This document shows positions 10,002 to 36,313 of a stretch of 39,746 nt of DNA, one piece after another; positions within the stretch are counted from its first letter, which is position 1, and each line of letters opens with the position of its first letter. The notes beneath the pieces were generated by a model. The model saw nothing but the letters and a program-made list of their open reading frames with translations, was not told where the DNA came from and did no database searches. Position numbers and translations under genes: made by a program. Source of the stretch: Kordiimonadaceae bacterium (GTDB lineage: Bacteria; Pseudomonadota; Alphaproteobacteria; Sphingomonadales; Emcibacteraceae); NCBI GenBank assembly GCA_018675425.1, contig JABGYD010000014.1, forward strand, positions 1-39,746, written 5' to 3'.

Positions 10002-10511
10002 TCAAATAAATGGGTTATGTGCCCATTGAAGCAAAGCCTGACGTTGACGTGGCCTACACCAAAGATCACCTGGCTCACAGTTTGCCTTAACCTGACCAGC
10101 ATGGCGAGAGAAATTTCTCCAACGCTTAATTTGCGTTTGATCCATACCGCTATGGCGGCGCCCACGATAATATCGGCAATACCATTCGAACCATCCACGC
10201 GGATCATCCTCCATAATCCAACCTTTGTGGCGCCACACGCTTAGTGGTTGACGACTTTTTAAGGCAAAATGATTTAAAGAGGGGTCAGGCATATCGCTTA
10301 AAATAGCACTTTCAAACCAGTGGCTGGGATATTCATCCTCACAGCTATTTAAATATTTACCTTCAAACACACCCATTGACAACATTTCTTTAGGAGTAAA
10401 ATAGGGATTAAACCCATCTCCAAAATTTTTTCCCTCATCTTCAGTCAATTCATACTCATAATTCTCTTGCATAGGATTAAGTACTTTTACGGTGCAACCT
10501 ATTTCACTCAT
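10002..10511 (-). CDS. Conserved protein of unknown function
   Basis: A 169-residue soluble protein without signal peptide or membrane segment. It is notable for many aromatic and charged residues, especially in the stretch GWIMEDDPRGWFEWYCRYY followed by RGRR, and in the C-terminal CRPRQRQALLQW. I have the impression that this DPRGWF-WYCRYY pattern belongs to a widely conserved bacterial family, but I cannot name it. There are four cysteines (C6, C56, and two near the C-terminus). It is placed between ferrochelatase and a DCC-family protein on the same strand with short gaps, so the three are likely one transcript. The start ATG at 10511 follows GAGAGATTAAA. Confidence 0.8.
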   Translation of the reverse strand: MSEIGCTVKVLNPMQENYEYELTEDEGKNFGDGFNPYFTPKEMLSMGVFEGKYLNSCEDEYPSHWFESAILSDMPDPSLNHFALKSRQPLSVWRHKGWIMEDDPRGWFEWYCRYYRGRRHSGMDQTQIKRWRNFSRHAGQVKANCEPGDLWCRPRQRQALLQWAHNPFI

Positions 10512-25027: not shown

Positions 25028-26392
25028 ATGAAACCTAATACAGAGCTTGATATTAATTCATATATTCACCCGCAGTCAAATTTAACAGCGCAAGAAAAAT
25101 TAGGGCCAATGATCATGACCCGTGGCGAAGGTGTTCACGTATTTGATGATCAGGAAAATAAATATCTTGATAGTGTATCAGGGCTTTGGTGTGTGACACT
25201 TGGTTATAATAATCAAGCTATTAAAGACGCAGCAACTAGACAACTGGATCAACTCCCTTTTTTTCAAACATTTGCGAACAAATCAAATAATCCTACCATA
25301 GAACTTGCAGCAAAACTTCTTGAAATTGCACCTGTTCCTATGTCAAAAGTAATGTTTCAAAACTCTGGTTCAGAAGCAGTCGACACTGCAATTAAATTAG
25401 TTTGGTATTATCAAAATGCCAGAGGTAAATCACAGAAAAAGAAAATTATTAGCCGTCATGGGTCTTATCACGGCACAACAATTGCTGCTGCTAGCTTAAC
25501 TGGTCTTCCAACCATGCACGCTCAGTTTGATCTTCCTATAGAAGGAATTTTACACACAGATAACCCAAACTATTACCGTTTTAGCGAAAAGGACGAAACA
25601 GAAATAGAGTTTGCATCCCGTTGTATCAAAAATTTAGAAAAACTAATTTTACATGAAGGCCCGGAAACTATTGGCGCTTTTTTTGCAGAACCCGTTATGG
25701 GTACTGGCGGGGTAATTGTCCCCCCAGAAACATATTTTGAAAAACTCCAAGTTATTCTTAAAAAATACGATATTTTATTAATTGCTGATGAAGTAATTTG
25801 TGGATTTGGTCGAACCGGTAATTATTGGGGTTGTGAAACATACAATATAAAGCCAGATATGATTGCCTGTGCTAAGGGTCTTTCTTCGGCCTACCTTCCA
25901 ATTTCTGCATTGTTGGTTTCAGATGAAATTTATCAAACCATGAAGAAAGGTAGTGATAAGGTTGGTATATTCGGACATGGTTACACATATAGCGGACATC
26001 CCGCATGTGCCGCAGTGGCTCTTGAAACTCTTAATCAATATTATGAACTTGATACACTTAATAATATAAGAAAGGTATCGCCTTCGTTTCAAAAAGGGTT
26101 ACGTCAATTTAAAAATCACCCCCTTGTCGGCGACGTCCGCGGAGTAGGTCTGATGGTATCAATTGAAATAGTTAAAGATAAGAAAACAAAGGAAAGTTTT
26201 GACCCCGCTTTAATGATTGGCCGTAAAATAGAAGATGCAGCCCTAAGTCACGGATTAATTCTTCGTGCACTTGGCAATAACCTTGTCTTTGCCCCGCCTT
26301 TTATAATTACACAAAGCGAAATTACAAAAATAATTGAAATCGTTGGTTTAGCTTTAGATGAAGTACACAACTGGTATGAGGGAAACAGTTAA
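25028..26392 (+). CDS. Class III omega-aminotransferase
   Basis: A 454-residue class III (fold type I) aminotransferase. Motifs are MFQNSGSEAVDTAIKL, RHGSYHGTTIAAASLTG, the DEVICGFGRTGNYWG block, and the PLP lysine K283 in ACAKGLSSAYLPISA, followed by GHGYTYSGHPACAAVAL. This pattern is that of omega-amino acid:pyruvate, GABA or putrescine/diamine aminotransferases, which remove a terminal amino group and give an aldehyde. With the decarboxylase and aldehyde dehydrogenase it would convert an amino acid through amine and aldehyde to an acid. Its stop overlaps the convergent IclR gene by 4 bp, with no room for a terminator between them. Confidence 0.9.
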   Translation: MKPNTELDINSYIHPQSNLTAQEKLGPMIMTRGEGVHVFDDQENKYLDSVSGLWCVTLGYNNQAIKDAATRQLDQLPFFQTFANKSNNPTIELAAKLLEIAPVPMSKVMFQNSGSEAVDTAIKLVWYYQNARGKSQKKKIISRHGSYHGTTIAAASLTGLPTMHAQFDLPIEGILHTDNPNYYRFSEKDETEIEFASRCIKNLEKLILHEGPETIGAFFAEPVMGTGGVIVPPETYFEKLQVILKKYDILLIADEVICGFGRTGNYWGCETYNIKPDMIACAKGLSSAYLPISALLVSDEIYQTMKKGSDKVGIFGHGYTYSGHPACAAVALETLNQYYELDTLNNIRKVSPSFQKGLRQFKNHPLVGDVRGVGLMVSIEIVKDKKTKESFDPALMIGRKIEDAALSHGLILRALGNNLVFAPPFIITQSEITKIIEIVGLALDEVHNWYEGNS

Positions 26393-27186
26393 CTTTCTTT
26401 AAGAATGTGACCAATGCCAACAGATACTCTTAAAGCCGCATCTTTTATTGCATTTATCTGCTCCTTACTCGGTTTTTTTGTTAACTCATAAATGGAAGTA
26501 ATAATACTTATAGTTCCTACTAACTGGTTTTGATGATCTAATATTGGTGCTGCAAGAGCATTAATACCCATAGTAATTTCTTCCGGTGCGATAGCCCAAC
26601 GCTGTAACCTAACCATTTCTATTTCTTTACTTAAATCATCGGCATTAATTACTGTACAAGCTGTAAATTTTTCCAGCGGTATTTTAAATAATCCTTGCCG
26701 CCAACTATCGGGGCCAAAAGCCAGTGCAATTTTCCCTTGCGCTGTGGCATGTAATGGAAAGGTTGATCCGGGACGGGTACTAATATCAATTTGCGAAGAT
26801 CCACGTACAATATCTATTACGCAAATATTTTCATTATTTACTGTGGAGAGGGTTACCGCCATTCCAAGTGCTTCTTTTAGTTGGCGCATAACAGGACGTG
26901 CAACACTAATAAGATCAATTTTCCCTTCCACATCTTTTCCAAGCCAAAAGAACTTCATGCTTAAGCCGTATTTATCATTGAAGGGGTCTTGGTCAACATA
27001 TCCAATATCTGACAACGTTCGGAGGTGCCTGTACACTCTGGGTCTTTCTAGATTAAGTGCGGTAGCAATTTCTGTTACACCAAGAGGCCTATCACATTTT
27101 GCTAAGAATTCAATAATAGAGAAGGTCAGTACAACCGATTTAATTTCGTCTGGTGATTTTTTTTTTCTTGGTCGTCCTGCAGGCAA
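26389..27186 (-). CDS. IclR-family transcriptional regulator
   Basis: A 265-residue regulator. A short basic N-terminal tail (PAGRPRKKKSPDEIK) is followed by a winged helix (residues about 20-85: LGVTEIATALNLERPRVYRHLRTLSDIGYVDQ), then a C-terminal effector domain with LHATAQGKIALAFGP and INALAAPILDHQNQLVGTISI typical of IclR. The start is TTG at 27184-27186, supported by AGGAG 8 bases upstream; no ATG is near. It is convergent with the aminotransferase and most likely controls the amino-acid/amine degradation operon, probably answering to a pathway intermediate. The regulated promoter would lie upstream of one of the plus-strand genes between 13988 and 18920. Confidence 0.9.
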   Translation of the reverse strand: MPAGRPRKKKSPDEIKSVVLTFSIIEFLAKCDRPLGVTEIATALNLERPRVYRHLRTLSDIGYVDQDPFNDKYGLSMKFFWLGKDVEGKIDLISVARPVMRQLKEALGMAVTLSTVNNENICVIDIVRGSSQIDISTRPGSTFPLHATAQGKIALAFGPDSWRQGLFKIPLEKFTACTVINADDLSKEIEMVRLQRWAIAPEEITMGINALAAPILDHQNQLVGTISIITSIYELTKKPSKEQINAIKDAALRVSVGIGHILKES

Positions 27187-27410: not shown

Positions 27411-27419
27411 GGGGGGGGG
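27411..27419 (+). repeat. G9 homopolymer tract
   Basis: Nine consecutive G in an otherwise AT-rich non-coding region, at the head of a set of short dyads. It may be a length-variable tract or mark an old junction. Confidence 0.8.
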
Positions 27420-27650
27420 TGTTGACAGTCAACTGCGAACCAGTCTCTGACTGTTTTCCCTGTTAATTTAGGAAAATACAGGGAAATTCTACATATTTCA
27501 ATCTATATCCACTTAATTGAACCAATATACCGCAGAAACCACACACTTTTCTTATAAATTCCCTAAAAAATATCAGGGATTTTATAAATTATATTAGGGA
27601 ACAAATAAAAGGCAAATGGGAATGTTAATTTATAATCATCTATGGTAGTT

Positions 27651-27665
27651 TTTGATCGCTTTTGA
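27651..27665 (+). promoter_or_regulatory. Candidate operator upstream of rhaT, matching one upstream of rhaK
   Basis: TTTGATCGCTTTTGA differs from TTTGATCTATTTTGA at 34853-34867 only in the two spacer bases. The motif consists of two TTTGA-like half-sites in direct repeat, a form used by DeoR-family repressors, and a DeoR-type gene is in the locus. Assignment to that regulator is inference. Confidence 0.5.
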
Positions 27666-27670
27666 TACAA

Positions 27671-27691
27671 TATGATCATATTATGATCATA
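27671..27691. repeat. Two tandem palindromes TATGATCATA
   Basis: The 10-bp palindrome TATGATCATA occurs at 27671-27680 and again at 27682-27691, so the two lie 11 bp apart, one helical turn, on the same face of the DNA. They are 58-78 bp upstream of the first possible rhaT start and adjacent to the TTTGATC motif, so they probably form part of the promoter control region. Confidence 0.6.
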
Positions 27692-27748
27692 TTATCTTTA
27701 TTTAGATCAAAATAACTGCTATGTAAAGCTGATACTATAAATACAGGG

Positions 27749-28915
27749 ATGCCGAAAAACAGACAAATAGTATTTCTGAATAATAATAATCTTATGCCAC
27801 GTCACATGTGCCAAGCGCTTATATTACAGGGAGGAAATCAAATCTCAAATTCGTTAATTGGACTATTATTCCACTGGGCCGGAGGCTTATCTGCCGCCAG
27901 CTTTTATGTGCCGTATAAGGCCGTCAAACATTGGTCATGGGAAGTTTATTGGATCGTCGGCGGCGTTTCGAGCTGGATCATCGCCCCGTGGTTCTTCGCC
28001 TATTTTCAAACTAACGATTTATTTGACGTCCTTTCAAGCACTTCAAATGAAACATTATTCTGGTGCTACTTCTTTGGCTTCGCCTGGGGCTTCGGCGCCC
28101 TGACATTCGGGTTGACTATGCGTTATCTTGGCCTTTCGTTAGGAATGGCGGTATCGCTTGGCTTAACCACCGCTTTTGGCACTTTAATACCCCCAATATA
28201 TGATGGCAGTGTCAGCACATTAATTCAAACAACTAGCGGTCAGGTCATCCTGCTTGGTGTGGCGATCACTCTGTGCGGAATTATGGTTATTGCCGCAGCG
28301 GGACGGGCAAAAGAAAAAGAAATGTCAGACGAAGACCGCAAAGCATCAATCGCCGAATTTGATTTTAAAAAAGGTATTATGGTTGCTGTTTTCTGCGGCA
28401 TTATGAGTTCATGCTTTGCTTATGCACTTGCCGCCGCTGAAGAAATCCGTTTACTTACGCTAGCCGCAGGAACAGACCCATTACAACAAGGCCTGCCTGC
28501 GCTTTGCATTATCCTCACGGGCGGTATGACAACCAATCTCATTTGGTGTGGCTATCTGATTATCAAAAATAAAAGTGCCGGAAATTTTGTCGGAAACGTG
28601 CCCGAGCAAACTAAAAGGCTCAGCATAAATATACTCACTTGGAATTATTTATTCTGCGCCCTCGCCGGGCTGATTTGGTATTTTCAATTCTTCTTTTATA
28701 CCATGGGTGAAAGCCTGATGGGCGATTACAGCTTCTCAAGCTGGGCCTTGCATATGGCTAGTATCATTATCTTTTCAACGCTTTGGGGCTTTTATTTCAA
28801 AGAATGGAAAGGGGTCAAAACCAAGACCTTCCTGATGGTTTGTTCCGGCATTGGCATCCTTGTTCTATCAACAATAATCATTGGTTGGGGCAATAGCATT
28901 GGCAGCAACCTATAA
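27749..28915 (+). CDS. rhaT: L-rhamnose:H+ symporter RhaT
   Basis: An inner-membrane permease with 10 helices. LLFHWAGGLSAASFYVPYKAVKHWSWE aligns with the first helix of E. coli RhaT; LTMRYLGLSLGMAVSLG and the C-terminal LIWYFQFFFYTMGE are also diagnostic. It imports L-rhamnose with protons. The start is uncertain. The frame opens at ATG 27749 and has ATGs at 27794 and 27806, but homology begins only near residue 36, and the only good ribosome site (AGGGAGG, 27828-27834) lies inside the frame, 7 bases before an ATC codon at 27842. The extra N-terminal residues may therefore not be made. Codon use is richer in G+C than in the upstream genes. First gene of the rhamnose locus. Confidence 0.9.
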   Translation: MPKNRQIVFLNNNNLMPRHMCQALILQGGNQISNSLIGLLFHWAGGLSAASFYVPYKAVKHWSWEVYWIVGGVSSWIIAPWFFAYFQTNDLFDVLSSTSNETLFWCYFFGFAWGFGALTFGLTMRYLGLSLGMAVSLGLTTAFGTLIPPIYDGSVSTLIQTTSGQVILLGVAITLCGIMVIAAAGRAKEKEMSDEDRKASIAEFDFKKGIMVAVFCGIMSSCFAYALAAAEEIRLLTLAAGTDPLQQGLPALCIILTGGMTTNLIWCGYLIIKNKSAGNFVGNVPEQTKRLSINILTWNYLFCALAGLIWYFQFFFYTMGESLMGDYSFSSWALHMASIIIFSTLWGFYFKEWKGVKTKTFLMVCSGIGILVLSTIIIGWGNSIGSNL

Positions 28916-29006
28916 GCAAAAAAGATACACTATGATTAATAATGATTGAATTTGACGTAATATTCCGTTATGAGTAGCTAAACCGTAAAATGCCGAAAGT
29001 ATAAAA

Positions 29007-31199
29007 ATGACTTACAAACCTGAAGAACTCCTCCATGTTAATTACCTTTGGAAAGATAAAGAAGCCGATAAGCTAAACCCGTTAGAGAAACTCGTTTACC
29101 GTTCCAATAAACTGGGGGAAGACCAAAGGGTTACAAATACTGGCGGCGGCAATACGTCGGCAAAACTAATGGAAACTGATCCTTTAACGGGCAAACAAGT
29201 TGAAGTTCTTTGGGTTAAAGGTTCCGGCGGTGACATCCGAACCGCTAAGCAAGAAAATTTTGCATCGCTTTATACTGAAAAACTGAATGCCCTCGACGAC
29301 ACATATAAGAACCTACCTGAAACAGGATATAAATCAGCCGGTGAAGACGAAATGGTTGGCATGTTCAAGCATTGCACATTTTGCTTAAACCCGCGCGCCA
29401 CATCCATTGATACCCCGCTTCATTCGATGATTCATGATAAGCATGTGGACCATTTGCATCCAAATTCTGTCATTTCAATTGCATCATGTAAAGATCAGGA
29501 ACGCTTGACCAAAGAAGTCTGGGGCGGCTATATGGCCTATGTTCCGTGGATGCGCCCCGGCTGGGAAATGGCAAAATTATGCTCCGACGTTTACGAAGAA
29601 AACCCGGATATTAGAGGCATACTGCTAGGTCAACACGGTCATACAAACTGGGCAAGTAAAGGCAAAGACTGTTACGATACCTCCCTTTGGGTTATCGAAA
29701 AAGCGGCCCGTTATATTGAAGATCATGACAAAGGCGAAATGACCTTTGGCGGCGCTAAATATGAAGCAGTATCTGAATTAATTCGCCAAGAAATATTAAA
29801 TGAATTTATGCCGGTAGCGCGCGGCCTGATTTCCGATAAAGTAAAATTCATAGCCACCATTCAAACGGATGGAAAGATACTTCGTTTCGTAAATAGTGTA
29901 GATGCGTTCAGGCTTGCCGAGCTTGGTACATCCTGCCCTGATCATTTCCTACGAACAAAAATTAAACCGCTTTACCTCGACTGGAATCCGCAAGGCGAAA
30001 CTTCCGAAAAATTAATTAAAAAATTCAAACTTGGACTTGAAAAATACCGTCAAGATTACACAGCATATTATGAAAAATTCCGCAACGATAGCTCCCCCGC
30101 CATGCGCGACCCAAGCCCGACGGTAATCCTCATCCCCGGCATTGGAATGATTGCCTGGGGTAAAAATAAGAGTGAATCCCGTGTTACGGCTGAATTTTAT
30201 AATTGCGCCGTTGAAGTGATACGCGGTGCCGAAGCCATAAGCGAATATACCGCCTTACCCGTGCAGGAAGCCTTCGATATTGAATATTGGACCTTGGAAG
30301 AAGCCAAATTACAGCGCATGCCAACAGAAAAACCACAAGCCCGCAGTGTGGTTATCGTGGTTGGTGCGGGTGACGGCATTGGCAAAGAAACCGCCCATAG
30401 AGTGGCCCGCGAAGGCGCCCATGTTGTTTGCACAGACCTTAGAGGCGAAAGCGCCGGAACGACAGCCGCGGAACTAACCGAAATATACGGTGTTGGTGTT
30501 GGTGTTGCTGGTTCTGGCATTTCAAATTGTGGTCCGGCAATTTCCATTGAAGTAAATATCACCAACCGTGACAGTGTCGCGAATATGTTTAAAAAAGTAA
30601 TTGCCGCTTACGGCGGCATTGATCATGTTATCGTCACCGCCGGAGTGTTCCTCGCCCCCGGACAAAATGAAACAGAGAACGATGATATGTTTACCACAAG
30701 TTTCGATGTCAATGTGAGAGGCGCTTATATCGTCGCAAGTGAAGCCGCAAAAATATGGCAAAAACAAAAAACTAAAGGATCGCTTGTTTTAACAACAAGT
30801 GTTAATGCCGCCGTTTCCAAAAAAGGCTCGTTTGCCTATGATACAAGCAAAGCCGCTACCAACCATTTAGTGCGCGAACTTGCGATTGAGTTAGCCCCGA
30901 ATATTCGCGTAAACGGCCTTGCGCCCGCGACTGTGGTTAAAGGCAGCACTATGTTTCCGCGTGACCGCGTTATTTCGTCACTGACTAAATATGATATTGA
31001 ACATTCGAATAGCGAAGATACCGATACATTGACAAATAAACTGGCCAAATTTTACGCCCAAAGAAATCTCGGTAAAACAACCATAACCCCTGCTGATCAG
31101 GCCGAGGTTGCCTATCTGCTAATTTCTGAACAGTTTAGCAAAACCACCGGACAAATAATAAATGTTGATGGCGGTTTACACGAAGCTTTCTTACGTTAA
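29007..31199 (+). CDS. rhaD: Bifunctional rhamnulose-1-phosphate aldolase / L-lactaldehyde dehydrogenase (SDR) fusion
   Basis: A 730-residue two-domain enzyme. Residues 1 to about 430 form a class II aldolase (AraD/FucA-like) with NTGGGNTSAKL near the start and the zinc-site region HSMIHDKHVDHLHPNSVI. Residues about 445-730 are a short-chain dehydrogenase with GAGDGIG at 453-459 and the catalytic Y611/K615 in FAYDTSKAAT. Such fusions (RhaD of rhizobia, RhaEW of Bacillus and Chloroflexus) split L-rhamnulose-1-P into DHAP and L-lactaldehyde, and the SDR domain oxidises lactaldehyde to L-lactate. It lies 91 bp after rhaT and 33 bp before rhaI, in one plus-strand operon. Whether the gene symbol should be rhaD or rhaEW is naming only. 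Confidence 0.92.
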   Translation: MTYKPEELLHVNYLWKDKEADKLNPLEKLVYRSNKLGEDQRVTNTGGGNTSAKLMETDPLTGKQVEVLWVKGSGGDIRTAKQENFASLYTEKLNALDDTYKNLPETGYKSAGEDEMVGMFKHCTFCLNPRATSIDTPLHSMIHDKHVDHLHPNSVISIASCKDQERLTKEVWGGYMAYVPWMRPGWEMAKLCSDVYEENPDIRGILLGQHGHTNWASKGKDCYDTSLWVIEKAARYIEDHDKGEMTFGGAKYEAVSELIRQEILNEFMPVARGLISDKVKFIATIQTDGKILRFVNSVDAFRLAELGTSCPDHFLRTKIKPLYLDWNPQGETSEKLIKKFKLGLEKYRQDYTAYYEKFRNDSSPAMRDPSPTVILIPGIGMIAWGKNKSESRVTAEFYNCAVEVIRGAEAISEYTALPVQEAFDIEYWTLEEAKLQRMPTEKPQARSVVIVVGAGDGIGKETAHRVAREGAHVVCTDLRGESAGTTAAELTEIYGVGVGVAGSGISNCGPAISIEVNITNRDSVANMFKKVIAAYGGIDHVIVTAGVFLAPGQNETENDDMFTTSFDVNVRGAYIVASEAAKIWQKQKTKGSLVLTTSVNAAVSKKGSFAYDTSKAATNHLVRELAIELAPNIRVNGLAPATVVKGSTMFPRDRVISSLTKYDIEHSNSEDTDTLTNKLAKFYAQRNLGKTTITPADQAEVAYLLISEQFSKTTGQIINVDGGLHEAFLR

Positions 31200-31232
31200 T
31201 AATTATCAAAATATAATACCAAGGAAAATACG

Positions 31233-32522
31233 ATGACTTTTTTCTCAGACGATTTTATAGGAAATAGTAACCAGAAACACATTTCTGACGCTCAAAATGA
31301 ATATGATGCCCTTGGCGCGAAGCTCTCTGCTAATAATATTGATATTGATAGCATCACCGAGCAAGCAGAAAATTTTAAAGTTGCGGTACCGAGCTGGGGC
31401 GTCGGTACGGGCGGCACCCGTTTCGCGCGCTTCCCCGGCATTTCCGAGCCGAGAAATATATTTGAAAAACTGGAAGACTGTAGTGTCATCAACAAACTAG
31501 TGCGGTCTACCCCCGGCGTTTCACCGCATTTTCCGTGGGATAAAGTTGATGATTTTTCCGAGCTTTCTAAGTTTGCCAAAAATCTAGACCTACATTTTGA
31601 TGCGGTAAATTCAAATACTTTTCAGGACCAAAACGGCCAGAATTTAAGTTATAAATATGGCAGTTTAGCCAACATCAATAAAGCCGTACGCGATATGGCG
31701 GTCGAGCATAATATCGACTGCATCGAATACGGGAAAGCCATTAACAGCAAAAGCATAACTGTTTGGGTTGGTGACGGTAGCAATCATCCCGGCGCCTGTA
31801 ATTTTACCGGACAGCTAGAAAACTATCTTGATAGCACAAAACAGATTTATACCGCGCTTCCCGATGACTGGACAATGTCGATTGAACATAAAATGTTTGA
31901 GCCATCCTTTTATTCAACGGTTATTCAGGACTGGGGCACCAATGTTTTATGCGCTATGGAGCTTGGTGAAAAATGCCGGTCATTAGTTGACCTTGGTCAT
32001 CATGCGCCAAACGTCAATATTGAAATGATCGTTGCGCGCCTCATCCAGTTTAAAAAGCTAGCCGGATTTCATTTTAATGATAGCAAATATGGTGACGATG
32101 ACCTTGATAGTGGTTCAATAAACCCGTTCCAGTTATTCCTTATTTTTAATGAACTTATTGATGCCGAATATAGAAAAGCCGAAAAATTTGACCCTATTTA
32201 TATGCTTGATCAATCACATAATGTCACCGACCCAATTGAAAGCCTTATGAATTCCGCTATTGAAGTACAGCGCGCTTATGTACTGGCTCTACTCATCGAC
32301 CGCAAAGCTTTGGGCAGCTATCAGCAGGAAAATGATGTCATAATGGCTCACAACACAATAAAGGCTGCTTATAATAGCGATGTTTCGTCTATACTGGCTA
32401 TGGCACGGTTAAAATCTGGTGGTGCCATTGATCCGATTGCCACTTATAGAGAAGCCAAGTATAAACAAACCATTGAAAGTGACCGTCCGGCCTCTGGCGC
32501 TGCAGGGTCCGGCATAGTTTAG
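31233..32522 (+). CDS. rhaI: L-rhamnose isomerase, RhaI type
   Basis: A 429-residue TIM-barrel sugar isomerase of the rhizobial RhaI type, distinct from enterobacterial RhaA. Metal-binding region segments are DWTMSIEHKMFEPSFYSTVI, SLVDLGHHAPNVNIEMIVARL, LAGFHFNDSKYGDDDLDSGS and YMLDQSHNVTDPIE, which supply the Glu, His and Asp ligands in the order of the family. It interconverts L-rhamnose and L-rhamnulose. CCAAGGAAAATACG gives a good ribosome site before the ATG. It is followed after 12 bp by the lactate dehydrogenase. Together with rhaK and rhaD it makes the standard phosphorylated rhamnose route. Confidence 0.92.
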   Translation: MTFFSDDFIGNSNQKHISDAQNEYDALGAKLSANNIDIDSITEQAENFKVAVPSWGVGTGGTRFARFPGISEPRNIFEKLEDCSVINKLVRSTPGVSPHFPWDKVDDFSELSKFAKNLDLHFDAVNSNTFQDQNGQNLSYKYGSLANINKAVRDMAVEHNIDCIEYGKAINSKSITVWVGDGSNHPGACNFTGQLENYLDSTKQIYTALPDDWTMSIEHKMFEPSFYSTVIQDWGTNVLCAMELGEKCRSLVDLGHHAPNVNIEMIVARLIQFKKLAGFHFNDSKYGDDDLDSGSINPFQLFLIFNELIDAEYRKAEKFDPIYMLDQSHNVTDPIESLMNSAIEVQRAYVLALLIDRKALGSYQQENDVIMAHNTIKAAYNSDVSSILAMARLKSGGAIDPIATYREAKYKQTIESDRPASGAAGSGIV

Positions 32523-32534
32523 GGATAATCCACA

Positions 32535-33674
32535 ATGACAGTGATTACCAACATCAACGACCTTCGCACACTTGCCATGAAGCGCGTGCCGCGTTCGATA
32601 TTTGATTATACCGACCGTGGCTCATACGATGAAACCACCATCAAATCCAATAGTGCGGATTTGCGAAACATGAAACTGCGCCAACGGGTGATGATCAATG
32701 TTGATAACCGCAATCATCAATCAACTTTTGTAGGACAAGCCGCAACAATGCCCGTTGCCATTGCACCGACCGGCCTCGCTGGAATTATGCATGTCAATGG
32801 GGAAATTTTAGGGGCGCAAGCCGCAGAAGAATTCGGCGTTCCTTTTACCCTCAGCACCATGTCCATTTGTTCAATCGAACAAGTGCGCGAAGCGACAACA
32901 AAACCATTCTGGTTTCAATTATATGTCATGCGTGACCGTGGCTTTGTTGAAGAACTTATTCAACGCGCCATTGACGCAAAATGTTCCGCACTGGTTTTAA
33001 CGGCTGACTTGCAAATTCAGGGGCAGCGCCATCAGGATATAAAAAACGGCCTGACCGTTCCACCGCGCCTTACGGTCAGCAACGCCATTAATATTACTTC
33101 AAAACCATTATGGTGCCTAAAAATGCTAACAGCAAAAAGCAAGAGCTTCGGCAATTTAAGTGAATATATGCCTAACGGTAGCGGCATGGGGACACTTTCC
33201 CAGTGGATCGCCGGGCAGTTTGATGCATCCCTTAACTGGAATGATGTTGCGTGGATCAGGAAAAAATGGCCGGGCAAGCTCATCCTTAAAGGTATTCTTG
33301 ACCCTGAAGATGCGGTTCAGGCCTTAAAGTCCGGCGTTGATGCCATTATCGTATCCAACCACGGTGGCAGACAGCTTGACGGCGCACCGTCCGCCATCGA
33401 AGCATTACCGGCGATTATTGATGCCGTCGGCTCTGATGTTGAAATATTATTTGATAGCGGCATTCGCAGCGGGCAGGATGTGCTTAAAGCATTGGCCCTC
33501 GGCGCGAAGGGCACTTTCATTGGTAAGGCATTTTTATATGGCCTCGGCGCTATGGGAAAATCGGGTGTTTTAAAAGTGTTGGAGATCATCAAAAATGAAC
33601 TTGATGTCAGCATGGCCCTTACTGGCACTAAAAATGTTAGCGATATTGGCCCACAAGTGCTTTGGAAAAAATAA
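32535..33674 (+). CDS. lldD: FMN-dependent L-lactate dehydrogenase
   Basis: A 379-residue alpha-hydroxy-acid oxidase family flavoprotein. It shows the N-terminal PRSIFDYTDRGSYDE, FMN-site block VAIAPTGLAGIMH, the LVLTADLQIQGQRHQD strand, catalytic base H276 in SNHGGRQLDGAPSAIEALP, and DSGIRSGQDVLKALALGA for phosphate binding. It oxidises L-lactate to pyruvate and passes electrons to quinone. Its presence in this operon is explained by the upstream fusion enzyme, which yields L-lactate. It ends in TAATG, where the A of the TAA stop is the first base of the mutarotase ATG. Confidence 0.92.
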   Translation: MTVITNINDLRTLAMKRVPRSIFDYTDRGSYDETTIKSNSADLRNMKLRQRVMINVDNRNHQSTFVGQAATMPVAIAPTGLAGIMHVNGEILGAQAAEEFGVPFTLSTMSICSIEQVREATTKPFWFQLYVMRDRGFVEELIQRAIDAKCSALVLTADLQIQGQRHQDIKNGLTVPPRLTVSNAINITSKPLWCLKMLTAKSKSFGNLSEYMPNGSGMGTLSQWIAGQFDASLNWNDVAWIRKKWPGKLILKGILDPEDAVQALKSGVDAIIVSNHGGRQLDGAPSAIEALPAIIDAVGSDVEILFDSGIRSGQDVLKALALGAKGTFIGKAFLYGLGAMGKSGVLKVLEIIKNELDVSMALTGTKNVSDIGPQVLWKK

Positions 33675-33994
33675 TGGTAACTAAATATAGCGCCTTTAAA
33701 ATGAATCTGTTACCTGATCAAAAACAAGAATATAAAAACCGCCACGACGAAATTTGGCCCGCGCTTTCAGCTTTATTAAAAAAGGTCGGCATTTGTGATT
33801 ATCATATCTATCTAGATGATGAGACCGACATATTATTCGCTTTTTATAAAATTGAAGATGATAGCAAACTTAAAGACCTGCCCCAACAAGACATCATGAT
33901 TAAATGGTGGGAATTTATGGCCGACATTATGGAAACTATGCCGAGCAATGAACCGGTAAGTCGTGAACTGTCTTTAATGTTTTATATGGAATAA
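33674..33994 (+). CDS. rhaM: L-rhamnose mutarotase
   Basis: A 106-residue protein from the ATG at 33674, which overlaps the lldD stop by one base (TAATG). The longer frame starts with TTG at 33662 and is less likely. The RhaM pattern is clear: KYSAFKMNLLPDQKQEYKNR, then HDEIWPAL with the catalytic histidine H24 after Y20, a DYHIYLDDETDILFAFY middle, and IMIKWWEFMADIMETMPSNEP at the C-terminus. It interconverts the alpha and beta anomers of L-rhamnose so that the isomerase gets its preferred form. Length matches the family (about 104). The last gene of the plus-strand rhamnose operon; its stop lies 1 bp from the convergent regulator. Confidence 0.93.
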   Translation: MVTKYSAFKMNLLPDQKQEYKNRHDEIWPALSALLKKVGICDYHIYLDDETDILFAFYKIEDDSKLKDLPQQDIMIKWWEFMADIMETMPSNEPVSRELSLMFYME

Positions 33995-33995
33995 A

Positions 33996-34775
33996 TTAAT
34001 CGGCGATAATTATTTTAACGCCGTGCTTTTCAAGAACTTTCAGGTATTTTTCGTCGGCGTCCTTATCAGTTATTAAAATATCAATTTCACTAAGTGGACA
34101 AAAAGTCATGCCGCTTTTAATGCCGAGTTTTGAGCTATCCGCGAGAAGTATAAGCGTTTCCGCCTGCTTTTTCAATCGTTGTTCTGCCTGAATTAATAGC
34201 GGGTCGGATTCCATCACCCCTTCTTCGCTGACGCCAAGCGCGCCCATAAACATTTTGGAACCACGGTAATATGAACTGGCATCATTTTCATAGGCACTGA
34301 GCACGATGCTTTGCTTTTTATATAATTCACCGCCCGTAAGCGATATTCGATTGTTACTATTCTGGTTTAATTCATAGGCAAGCGGAAATGAATTGGTCAT
34401 AATATTCAATTGCCTATCTTTGAGCGTATACCGCATCATAAAGGTGGTGCTTCCGCCATTTATAATTATAGACTCGCCCTCTTCGCATAATTCAACGGCT
34501 TTATCGGCGATACGTTTTTTATTTGTGCTAAACTGTTCTTTATTATTGGAAAAAGTCGCGCCTTTTAATCTAGATAGCGTGGAGTTATTTTGTAATGACT
34601 GGACCCCGCCGCGAATTTTCGCTAGCATATTCTGCTTAGACAGCGTAACGATATCTCTTCTTATTGTCGCTTGTGACGCCTCGAGTCTCGCCGAAAGCTC
34701 TGTTACTCTAGCAAAATTCTGATCAGACAAAATATCAAGGATCGCCTCATGTCTTTGCTTTTCCATCATGTCCAT
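33996..34775 (-). CDS. rhaR: DeoR/GlpR-family regulator, probable rhamnose repressor
   Basis: A 259-residue regulator. The N-terminal winged helix is RHEAILDILSDQNFARVTELSARLEASQATIRRDIVTLSKQNMLAKIRGG (by position about 7-57). The C-terminal sugar-phosphate-sensing domain contains ELCEEGESIIINGGSTTFMM, LTGGELYKKQSIVLS, FMGALGVSEEGVMESDPL and LADSSKLGIKSG. In rhizobia the rhamnose locus is controlled by a DeoR-type RhaR, so this gene, divergent from rhaK and convergent with rhaM, is its likely counterpart. The candidate operators are at 27651-27665 and 34853-34867. The start at 34775 has AGGAA only 2 bases upstream; the ATG at 34769 is better spaced. Confidence 0.88.
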   Translation of the reverse strand: MDMMEKQRHEAILDILSDQNFARVTELSARLEASQATIRRDIVTLSKQNMLAKIRGGVQSLQNNSTLSRLKGATFSNNKEQFSTNKKRIADKAVELCEEGESIIINGGSTTFMMRYTLKDRQLNIMTNSFPLAYELNQNSNNRISLTGGELYKKQSIVLSAYENDASSYYRGSKMFMGALGVSEEGVMESDPLLIQAEQRLKKQAETLILLADSSKLGIKSGMTFCPLSEIDILITDKDADEKYLKVLEKHGVKIIIAD

Positions 34776-34852
34776 ATTTCCTGATTAAAACGTATTATCC
34801 AACATTATTCTATTTTGTGCTTTTCCTTATAAATTGCAACTATATAATAGAA

Positions 34853-34867
34853 TTTGATCTATTTTGA
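34853..34867 (+). promoter_or_regulatory. Candidate operator between rhaR and rhaK
   Basis: TTTGATCTATTTTGA shares 13 of 15 bases with the site upstream of rhaT and lies in the 137-bp divergent gap. TCTATTTTG at 34858-34866 is a 9-bp direct repeat of 34809-34817, so several half-sites are present. Suggested target of the DeoR-type repressor (inference). Confidence 0.5.
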
Positions 34868-34912
34868 ATTAAAATGACACTTTTTCAATAACCATAAAAA
34901 GGATAAATAGTA

Positions 34913-36313
34913 ATGAAACGCTTTGTCGTCCTAGATGTGGGCAAAACCATTAGCAAGCTTACGTTATGGCAGCAAGGCGGAAAATTAATTAAACGTTGTA
35001 CCAAGAACAACACATCCCTTCAAACAGAGCACTATCCGGCACTAGATGTAAAAAGTACCGAAGAATGGATCCTAACGACACTAAAGGAATTTTCACAGTT
35101 AGGTGATATTAATGCCATCATCCCGGTTTCTCACGGCGCCGCGGCGGCAATAATATCTGATGATAAACTTGCTCTCCCTCCAATGGACTACGAAACTAAG
35201 ATGCCATCTGATATTCAGATATCTTACCAGCAAGAAAGAGCAACTTTTTCAGAAACCGGCTCGCCATTACTGCCAGACGGTTTAAACCTTGGCATACAGC
35301 TTTATAGGTTAGAGGCGCTTTATCCAGATATATTTAAATCCCCCGCGCAAATTATGCCGCTGGCACAATATTGGGCATGGGTATTATCAGGGGTCAGTGC
35401 ATCAGAAGTAACCAGTATCGGCTGTCATTCTGATTTATGGCAACCCAACCTTAATGAACCTTCTAGTTTAGCTAAAAATAAGGGTTGGGATAAATTACTA
35501 GCGCCCGTTCATCATGCCGGTGATATTCTCGGCGTGGTAAGAGAAAGCATTGCAAAAACCACTGGCCTTAACCCTGATGTAAAAGTTTACTGCGGCCTTC
35601 ACGATTCAAATGCCGCCCTCCTCGCCGCAAGAAAATCCCTTGAAATTGCTGACAGTGAAGCGACCATTGTATCAACTGGCACTTGGTTCATTGCCATGCG
35701 GTCACCATCTGAGCCCATTGATATTTCAAAAATTAAAGAACAGAGAGACTGTTTGGTAAATATAGATATCAACGGGCTTTCAATTCCTTCTGCACGCTTT
35801 ATGGGTGGACGGGAAATAGTAACGCTCATTGAAAATGAAGACAGAATAGACCGCCCAGAAGATCAACCGGTTGTCTTAAACGCCATAAATGAAGTTTTAT
35901 CATTAAAATCGATGATTTTACCGTCTTTTTCACCGGGATTTGGGCCCTTTGCATCGGCAAGCGGAAAGTGGGTAAATAAACCCGAAAACCCGGACGCCGT
36001 CCGCGCCGCCATTGCACTTTATGCCGCCATGGTAACCAATGTTTCTCTTAATCTTATTAGTTCCCATAGTAATATTTTAATAGAAGGCCGATTTTCAAAA
36101 GCGGATGCATTTGGTAAAATATTGGCTGCACTAAGACCAAATGACAATATTTATGTGGGAAATGATAGTCACGATGTTTCCTACGGCGCATTAAGTCTCA
36201 TGGATGAGACATTACCAGTCCCGGATAAATTAACTAAACCCACGCCTGTAAAAGAAAATATAGAAGATTATCATCAATCATGGATTAGAGAAATTAGTAA
36301 AGTAACTGGTTAA
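34913..36313 (+). CDS. rhaK: L-rhamnulokinase, FGGY family
   Basis: A 466-residue sugar kinase. It starts MKRFVVLDVGKTISKLTLW, a phosphate-1-type loop with DVGKT in place of the usual DxGT. The catalytic base D231 is in VYCGLHDSNAALLAA and the adenosine-site block is STGTWFIAM (255-258 region). The C-terminal LIEGRFSKADAFGKILAAL is the equivalent of the second FGGY signature. Length and motifs match the rhizobial RhaK branch. It converts L-rhamnulose to rhamnulose-1-P, the substrate of the aldolase fusion. AAGGA lies 10 bases before the ATG. Divergent from the regulator. Confidence 0.9.
   Translation: MKRFVVLDVGKTISKLTLWQQGGKLIKRCTKNNTSLQTEHYPALDVKSTEEWILTTLKEFSQLGDINAIIPVSHGAAAAIISDDKLALPPMDYETKMPSDIQISYQQERATFSETGSPLLPDGLNLGIQLYRLEALYPDIFKSPAQIMPLAQYWAWVLSGVSASEVTSIGCHSDLWQPNLNEPSSLAKNKGWDKLLAPVHHAGDILGVVRESIAKTTGLNPDVKVYCGLHDSNAALLAARKSLEIADSEATIVSTGTWFIAMRSPSEPIDISKIKEQRDCLVNIDINGLSIPSARFMGGREIVTLIENEDRIDRPEDQPVVLNAINEVLSLKSMILPSFSPGFGPFASASGKWVNKPENPDAVRAAIALYAAMVTNVSLNLISSHSNILIEGRFSKADAFGKILAALRPNDNIYVGNDSHDVSYGALSLMDETLPVPDKLTKPTPVKENIEDYHQSWIREISKVTG

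Follow-up and report, generated by a model that had tools for sequence, protein, structure and literature searches.

The 39,746-nucleotide contig JABGYD010000014.1 of a Kordiimonadaceae bacterium (GenBank assembly GCA_018675425.1), referred to here as the window, carries a set of L-rhamnose (rha) catabolic genes together with rhaR, which encodes a DeoR-family regulator and proposed repressor. The locus raises the question of whether its rha promoters share operators for this regulator. An earlier note on this DNA had reported a 15-bp motif, TTTGATCNNTTTTGA, at the promoters of the transporter gene rhaT and the kinase gene rhaK, had read it as direct-repeat half-sites suited to the DeoR-type protein, and had concluded that both operons would form one regulon. 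The present analysis indicates that the 15-mer is part of a longer repeat array found at three promoters. These arrays are predicted RhaR operators, and sequence comparison makes it very probable that RhaR represses all three promoters as one local rhamnose regulon.

The shared 15-mer

The two 15-mers match TTTGATCNNTTTTGA exactly at 27651–27665 and 34853–34867, both on the forward strand and nowhere else in the window. They are identical at 13 of 15 positions, as had been reported, the sole difference being the central pair (GC versus TA). In the whole genome (2,202,078 bases in 94 contigs), three exact copies were found, whereas the reversed-pattern control gave none. The third copy, on the minus strand of contig C27 at 10473–10487, lacks a third half-site and lies 52 bases upstream of the start of an open reading frame (ORF) unrelated to rha, whose product, judged by eye, is rich in CxxCH motifs. 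Genome-wide matches with up to one mismatch stay at background (14 versus 12 in the control). Within the window, matches with up to three mismatches number 33 against 36.4 expected.

The resemblance was also compared with dinucleotide shuffles of the 562-bp iclR–rhaT and 137-bp rhaR–rhaK intergenic regions. A match of at least 13 of 15 arose on the same strand in 152 of 400 shuffles and on either strand in 252; with the rhaT side cut to 150 bp upstream, these values were 61 and 113 of 400. Taken alone, the 13-of-15 match is at chance level, and a verdict resting on it was dropped because shuffles equal it and mismatch searches remain at background. A broader search in degenerate nucleotide code (WTTGATCNNWWTTGA) found five places in the genome, two of them the 15-mer sites, with none in the control. 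The pattern TGATYRNWWWTGATWNA, tried at up to one mismatch for further regulon members, was too noisy to use (62 versus 20 in the control).

Predicted operator arrays at three promoters

Beyond the 15-mer, each site has a third half-site, again spaced by 10 bp, so the 15-mer is only a fragment of a longer site. O1, at the rhaT promoter (27651–27675, forward strand), reads TTTGATCGCT.TTTGATACAA.TATGA and includes the first 15-mer; read further, it is TTTGATCGCT.TTTGATACAA.TATGATCATA. O3, in the divergent rhaR–rhaK region (34853–34877, forward strand), reads TTTGATCTAT.TTTGAATTAA.AATGA, or TTTGATCTAT.TTTGAATTAA.AATGACACTT when read further, includes the second 15-mer, and lies 35 bases from the rhaK ATG and 77 from that of rhaR. 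Its exact extent is uncertain, and it may start one half-site earlier, at 34843. A further array, O2, overlooked in the earlier note, occupies 28931–28955 (forward strand) at the rhaEW promoter, 51 bases before the rhaEW ATG, and reads TATGATTAAT.AATGATTGAA.TTTGA or, read further, TATGATTAAT.AATGATTGAA.TTTGACGTAA.

A search of the 2.20-Mb genome for the triple pattern WWTGAN5WWTGAN5WWTGA returned four places, compared with one for the control, namely O1, O2, O3 and one other; to the disadvantage of this count, the pattern was written after O1 and O3 had been seen, so that only the discovery of O2 is independent. Three TGAT elements at 10-bp spacing occur three times genome-wide, O1 among them (control, none). 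Among 5000 shuffles of the three intergenic regions, the triple arose 4, 0 and 1 times in one region by itself, and no shuffle contained it in more than one. The fourth genomic match (C43:11558–11582) has no rha gene nearby and was not counted as a RhaR target; the nearest forward ORF listed beyond it starts about 510 bases away and extends past the end of the locus. An Rfam scan at this match gave nothing at gathering score, and no further search of the surroundings was made.

A weightier test comes from models trained on the rha promoters of other genomes. In 78 divergent rhaEW/rhaR intergenic regions, same-strand TGAT–TGAT pairs were most frequent at spacings of 10 (110 pairs) and 20 (65 pairs), where 30 shuffles of single bases within 40-base blocks gave means of 0.7 and 0.4, a contrast weakened by the fact that the relatives are interdependent and block shuffles ignore kinship. 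Expectation–maximisation, seeded with words of the sequences and run on a non-redundant set of 68 of these regions (near-duplicates and any with N dropped, window excluded), yielded the de novo motif TGATYGTTTwTGATTGA, which places O2 at the top of the window with 19.2 bits, the next place scoring 12.3. Tied models of three 10-bp half-sites were built from three separate training sets of 27, 60 and 19 sequences, again excluding the window, and each site was given the best rank reached on either strand up to 12 bases away. Among distinct places in the window, all three models ranked O2 first and O1 second.

Conservation in relatives

To compare these sites across relatives, an alignment scan of named genomes was used, which confirmed at least 570 RhaR homologues; a single-sequence scan of genome contigs confirmed no relative. 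The best 80 of these loci were kept, and rhaEW is present in 79 of them and rhaEW or rhaK in all 80; 15 of 18 further loci with RhaR homologues also contain rhaEW or rhaK. The loci were grouped as L068–L077 (Kordiimonadaceae and Alteromonadales), the window's own order, L078–L147, and L053–L060 at class level. Upstream counts leave out rha matches that stop short of the N-terminus or have less than 200 bp upstream; a divergent rhaEW/rhaR region enters the counts of both genes.

Within the 300 bp before rhaEW, TGATN6TGAT occurs in 7 of 8 regions of L068–L077 (14 of 523 background tiles), 4 of 6 of the own order (5 of 322) and 53 of 70 of L078–L147 (26 of 3877). Before rhaR, the corresponding fractions are 7/10, 1/7 and 52/70, with 2/8 in L053–L060. 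These counts mark the rhaEW operator as the conserved core, and they give more support to O3 as an operator on the rhaR side, in which rhaK shares, than to O3 as an operator of rhaK itself. High-scoring RhaR-type sites were additionally seen in gammaproteobacterial loci, at 2820–2836 and 17594–17610 of L074 and 4369–4385 of L072. One of them separates a GH88 gene (NCBIfam BglB) from a gene for a GDSL/PaeY-like esterase, one lies beside a gene for a cysteine-rich-domain protein, and one precedes a gene for a KdgK-like kinase (below cut-off), after which comes a DctP gene. In those gammaproteobacteria, the regulon may extend to pectin-related genes.

Evidence against the regulon and rival explanations

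Several results weigh against the single-regulon reading. The TGAT pair precedes rhaEW in just 2 of 8 L053–L060 regions (background 5 of 450), and L055–L060, whose RhaR proteins are 39–42% identical, are without it; the RhaR family is therefore not tied to one motif. Before rhaK the pair is found in only 2/9 regions of L068–L077, 2/6 of the own order, 0/64 of L078–L147 and 0/9 of L053–L060, low values that are tempered by the frequent position of rhaK downstream of rhaR or rhaM in relatives' loci. The strict triple before rhaEW is likewise limited, to 2/8, 0/6, 23/70 and 0/8 in L068–L077, the own order, L078–L147 and L053–L060, against backgrounds of 4/523, 0/322, 0/3877 and 0/450. In the de novo motif scan, O1 came only ninth, with 8.4 bits, and O3 in its register lay outside the top 15. 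The tied models ranked O3 third, third and 17th, the last with the own-order model, and all three preferred a register one half-site upstream of 34853–34877, the given register ranking 7, 11 and 42. By these scores O3 is the weakest predicted site of the three.

By eye, the rhaR–rhaEW intergenic regions of L055 and L057–L060 contain repeated TTTTGCATCGCAAAA/TTGCGACGCAAAATGA-like palindromes instead of TGAT pairs. A related RhaR with another operator is a possible explanation for them, as is another regulator.

O1 has a feature of its own. It extends into a mirrored structure at 27650–27712, with arms at 27650–27680 and 27682–27712. TTTGATC marks the outer end of each arm, and the centre holds two copies of the palindrome TATGATCATA (27671 and 27682). 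The 31-nucleotide arms are 74% complementary (23 of 31 pairs), a value reached in none of 200 shuffles (maximum 21). This inverted arrangement may be a double operator or the site of a second regulator. In a stronger version, which appears rather unlikely, the mirrored array of O1 would span 63 bp, offer as many as six half-sites and accommodate either a pair of RhaR oligomers facing each other or a single larger assembly, and the imported rhaT would be controlled more tightly or more cooperatively than the enzyme operon; if true, it would mean that an incoming transporter had been wired into a horizontally acquired regulon through a double-sized operator. Promoter-like hexamer pairs occur within O1 (TTGATA, 17 bases, GATCAT) and, directed towards rhaR, across part of O3; with 41 such pairs over the region against 23.3 expected, they are weak evidence for promoters at O1 and O3.

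Pure coincidence would make the sites meaningless, a 13-of-15 match being expected between two promoters of an AT-rich genome. This explanation accounts well for the same-strand shuffles, for the background-level number of window matches and for the third exact copy at an unrelated gene. It leaves unexplained why three of the four genome-wide triple matches fall in rha promoters, why no shuffle placed the triple in two or more regions, and why models from other genomes choose O2 and O1 first, with O3 third in two of three; we regard it as very improbable. A second explanation keeps O2, and weakly O3, as RhaR operators and assigns O1 wholly or partly to another regulator, for example the IclR-type protein encoded at 26389–27186, leaving rhaT under separate or dual control. 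The 63-bp inverted arrangement of O1, unlike the simple arrays O2 and O3, speaks for it, as do the low rank of O1 in the de novo scan, the intergenic region that rhaT has in common with iclR, and the fact that rhaT is not a usual neighbour of rhaR (none of 98 loci at an 80-bit cut). Nevertheless, O1 is second in every three-half-site model, its first half-site fits TGATYG, and the other inverted repeats of this region (27552–27587) lie nearer the iclR side; this second explanation seems improbable. A reading of O1 as an FNR- or CRP-like site, considered from their consensus sequences only, was set aside.

The preferred reading remains that of one RhaR regulon, and the earlier proposal is supported in amended form. 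The comparative evidence and the genome-wide rarity of the triple favour direct-repeat half-sites serving a DeoR-type regulator, with a unit of about 10 bp repeated three times. The two operons would indeed share one regulon, although the number of promoters rises to at least three, since a better site precedes rhaEW.

Proposed mechanism

Each operator would be an array of approximately 10-bp WWTGAT-like half-sites, one per helical turn. With this spacing, directly repeated half-sites all come to lie on the same face of the DNA, as expected for a DeoR-type oligomer, so that several DNA-binding heads of a single RhaR oligomer could contact that face together. We infer that, without rhamnose, RhaR would occupy O1 (rhaT), O2 (rhaEW–rhaI–lldD–rhaM) and O3 (rhaK and probably rhaR too, which would imply autoregulation) and block RNA polymerase at the predicted promoters. 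A pathway intermediate, L-rhamnulose or its 1-phosphate, would then bind the C-terminal domain and release RhaR, and uptake and catabolism would be switched on together. In Bacillus subtilis, the inducer is reportedly rhamnulose-1-phosphate. Chloroflexus RhaR, also of the DeoR type, came off its DNA in vitro with L-rhamnulose but not with L-rhamnose (PMC3870299). For Rhizobium leguminosarum, full induction is described as independent of rhaK (PMC9025865).

Genes of the locus

The rhaR gene (33996–34775, minus strand), flanked by rhaM and rhaK, encodes a protein with the domains PF08220 HTH_DeoR (56.3 bits) and PF00455 DeoRC (138.4 bits), both above cut-off. Its best NCBIfam match, UlaR (NF010034), scores 218.3 against a cut-off of 244, so the protein carries no equivalog name. 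The remaining rha genes are on the forward strand. The bifunctional rhamnulose-1-phosphate aldolase/lactaldehyde dehydrogenase gene rhaEW (29007–31199; NF006189, 1003 bits, and TIGR02632, 921 bits, both above cut-off) is followed by the L-rhamnose isomerase gene rhaI (31233–32522; TIGR02629, 657 bits, cut-off 646.75), an lldD-like L-lactate dehydrogenase gene 12 bases after it (32535–33674; NF008398, 440 bits, cut-off 376; PF01070) and the L-rhamnose mutarotase gene rhaM (33662–33994; TIGR02625, 111.5 bits, cut-off 99.6). From rhaEW to rhaM the genes are close or overlapping, which is consistent with one operon. The FGGY-family kinase gene rhaK (34913–36313; PF21546 and PF00370) reaches no NCBIfam cut-off; homologues occur in relatives' rha loci, and by context it is a putative rhamnulokinase. 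From established pathway knowledge and these family assignments, rhamnose would be converted to rhamnulose (RhaI), rhamnulose-1-phosphate (RhaK), dihydroxyacetone phosphate and lactaldehyde, with the latter passing to lactate (RhaEW) and on to pyruvate (LldD).

The L-rhamnose/H+ symporter gene rhaT (27749–28915; NF010024, 499.7 bits, cut-off 468; PF06379) shows homology only from near 27842, and the ATG of the relatives L153 and L154 aligns with CAA at 27839–27841. No ATG, GTG or TTG stands at the start expected from homology; GGGAGG at 27829–27834 is followed after 7 bases by ATC at 27842. This leaves a rare ATC start, translation from an ATG further upstream with an extended N-terminus, or a sequence error. 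The IclR-type gene is divergent upstream of rhaT, and the AT-rich region between them contains a run of nine G at 27411–27419 and inverted repeats TTATAAATTCCCT/AGGGATTTTATAA at 27552–27608, which are perhaps IclR sites.

Origin of the cassette

Trees were built from 52 RhaR and 43 RhaEW rows picked by hand from 98 loci, with the partial RhaEW of L047 left out as too short. The window RhaR falls with those of the Kordiimonadaceae metagenome-assembled genome (MAG) NORP235, Alteromonadales and Marinimicrobium (11 rows, support 100/100), although its exact place is uncertain, given a long end branch (0.81) and the program's warning about long branches meeting; the window RhaEW stands in a similar grouping (9 rows, 100/100). 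Of 12 genus-mates, 3 have the pathway, and their copies fall elsewhere in the trees (RhaR of all three, RhaEW of two). RhaT-like proteins were found in 3 of 385 genomes of the class, the window's own included. The rhamnose cassette was probably acquired horizontally, regulator and operators together. In genus-mates, a protein of 551–566 residues, permease-like by eye, is encoded between rhaK and rhaEW (L046 4388–6043, L048 13439–15139); the protein in L046 has no Pfam match at 1e-8 or NCBIfam match at 1e-30, and a possible role is that of an uncharacterised rhamnose transporter.

Comparison with known systems

What had been a weak likeness between two sites becomes, on this analysis, a well-defined proposal for a regulon of three promoters. 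With it comes a model of the operator, in which WWTGA half-sites follow one another at intervals of one helical turn; the model covers DeoR-type RhaR proteins from a Kordiimonadaceae MAG, from Alteromonadales and from numerous Rhodobacterales and Rhizobiales. The results also suggest that a rhamnose cassette moved between lineages with its regulator and operators. The general principle of such DeoR-type RhaR regulons is already published, and the gain here is one of detail, the arrangement being sensible but ordinary.

The DeoR-family RhaR class was described by Rodionova et al. (2013, PMC3870299), and the portions of that study available here give its features as a DeoR-type protein among rha genes, motifs of two imperfect direct repeats with 10–11 bp periodicity, and a local regulon of one to several operons. 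The protein of the window is a probable member of this class, combining DeoR helix–turn–helix and DeoRC domains with a rha gene setting and 10–11 bp direct repeats before rha operons. In the same portions, an electrophoretic mobility shift assay supports binding of Chloroflexus RhaR to a 38-bp fragment with four tandem TCGAAA sites, whereas the half-site here is WWTGAT-like (TTTGAT/TGATTG). The nearest named relatives of the present locus, Kordiimonadaceae and Alteromonadales, are outside the lineages named in those portions, and the Rhizobiales RhaR logo (Figure 3D of PMC3870299) may be very similar to the present half-site.

In R. leguminosarum and Sinorhizobium meliloti, the available text of PMC9025865 likewise describes a DeoR-type negative regulator, which controls a rhaD(EW)–rhaI operon along with another that contains rhaK and the mutarotase gene. 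There, rhaR heads the ATP-binding cassette (ABC) transporter operon rhaRSTPQUK, whereas here no other rha gene shares its strand, the transporter is RhaT instead of an ABC system, and lldD comes after rhaI. The loci of Alteromonadales, Marinimicrobium and MAG NORP235 (L068–L077) share RhaR at 49–57% and RhaEW at 65–75% identity with the window but differ in gene order, and no RhaT was found in them at 80 bits. In contrast to the AraC-type RhaS/RhaR activators of Escherichia coli, the regulator of the present locus is of the DeoR type.

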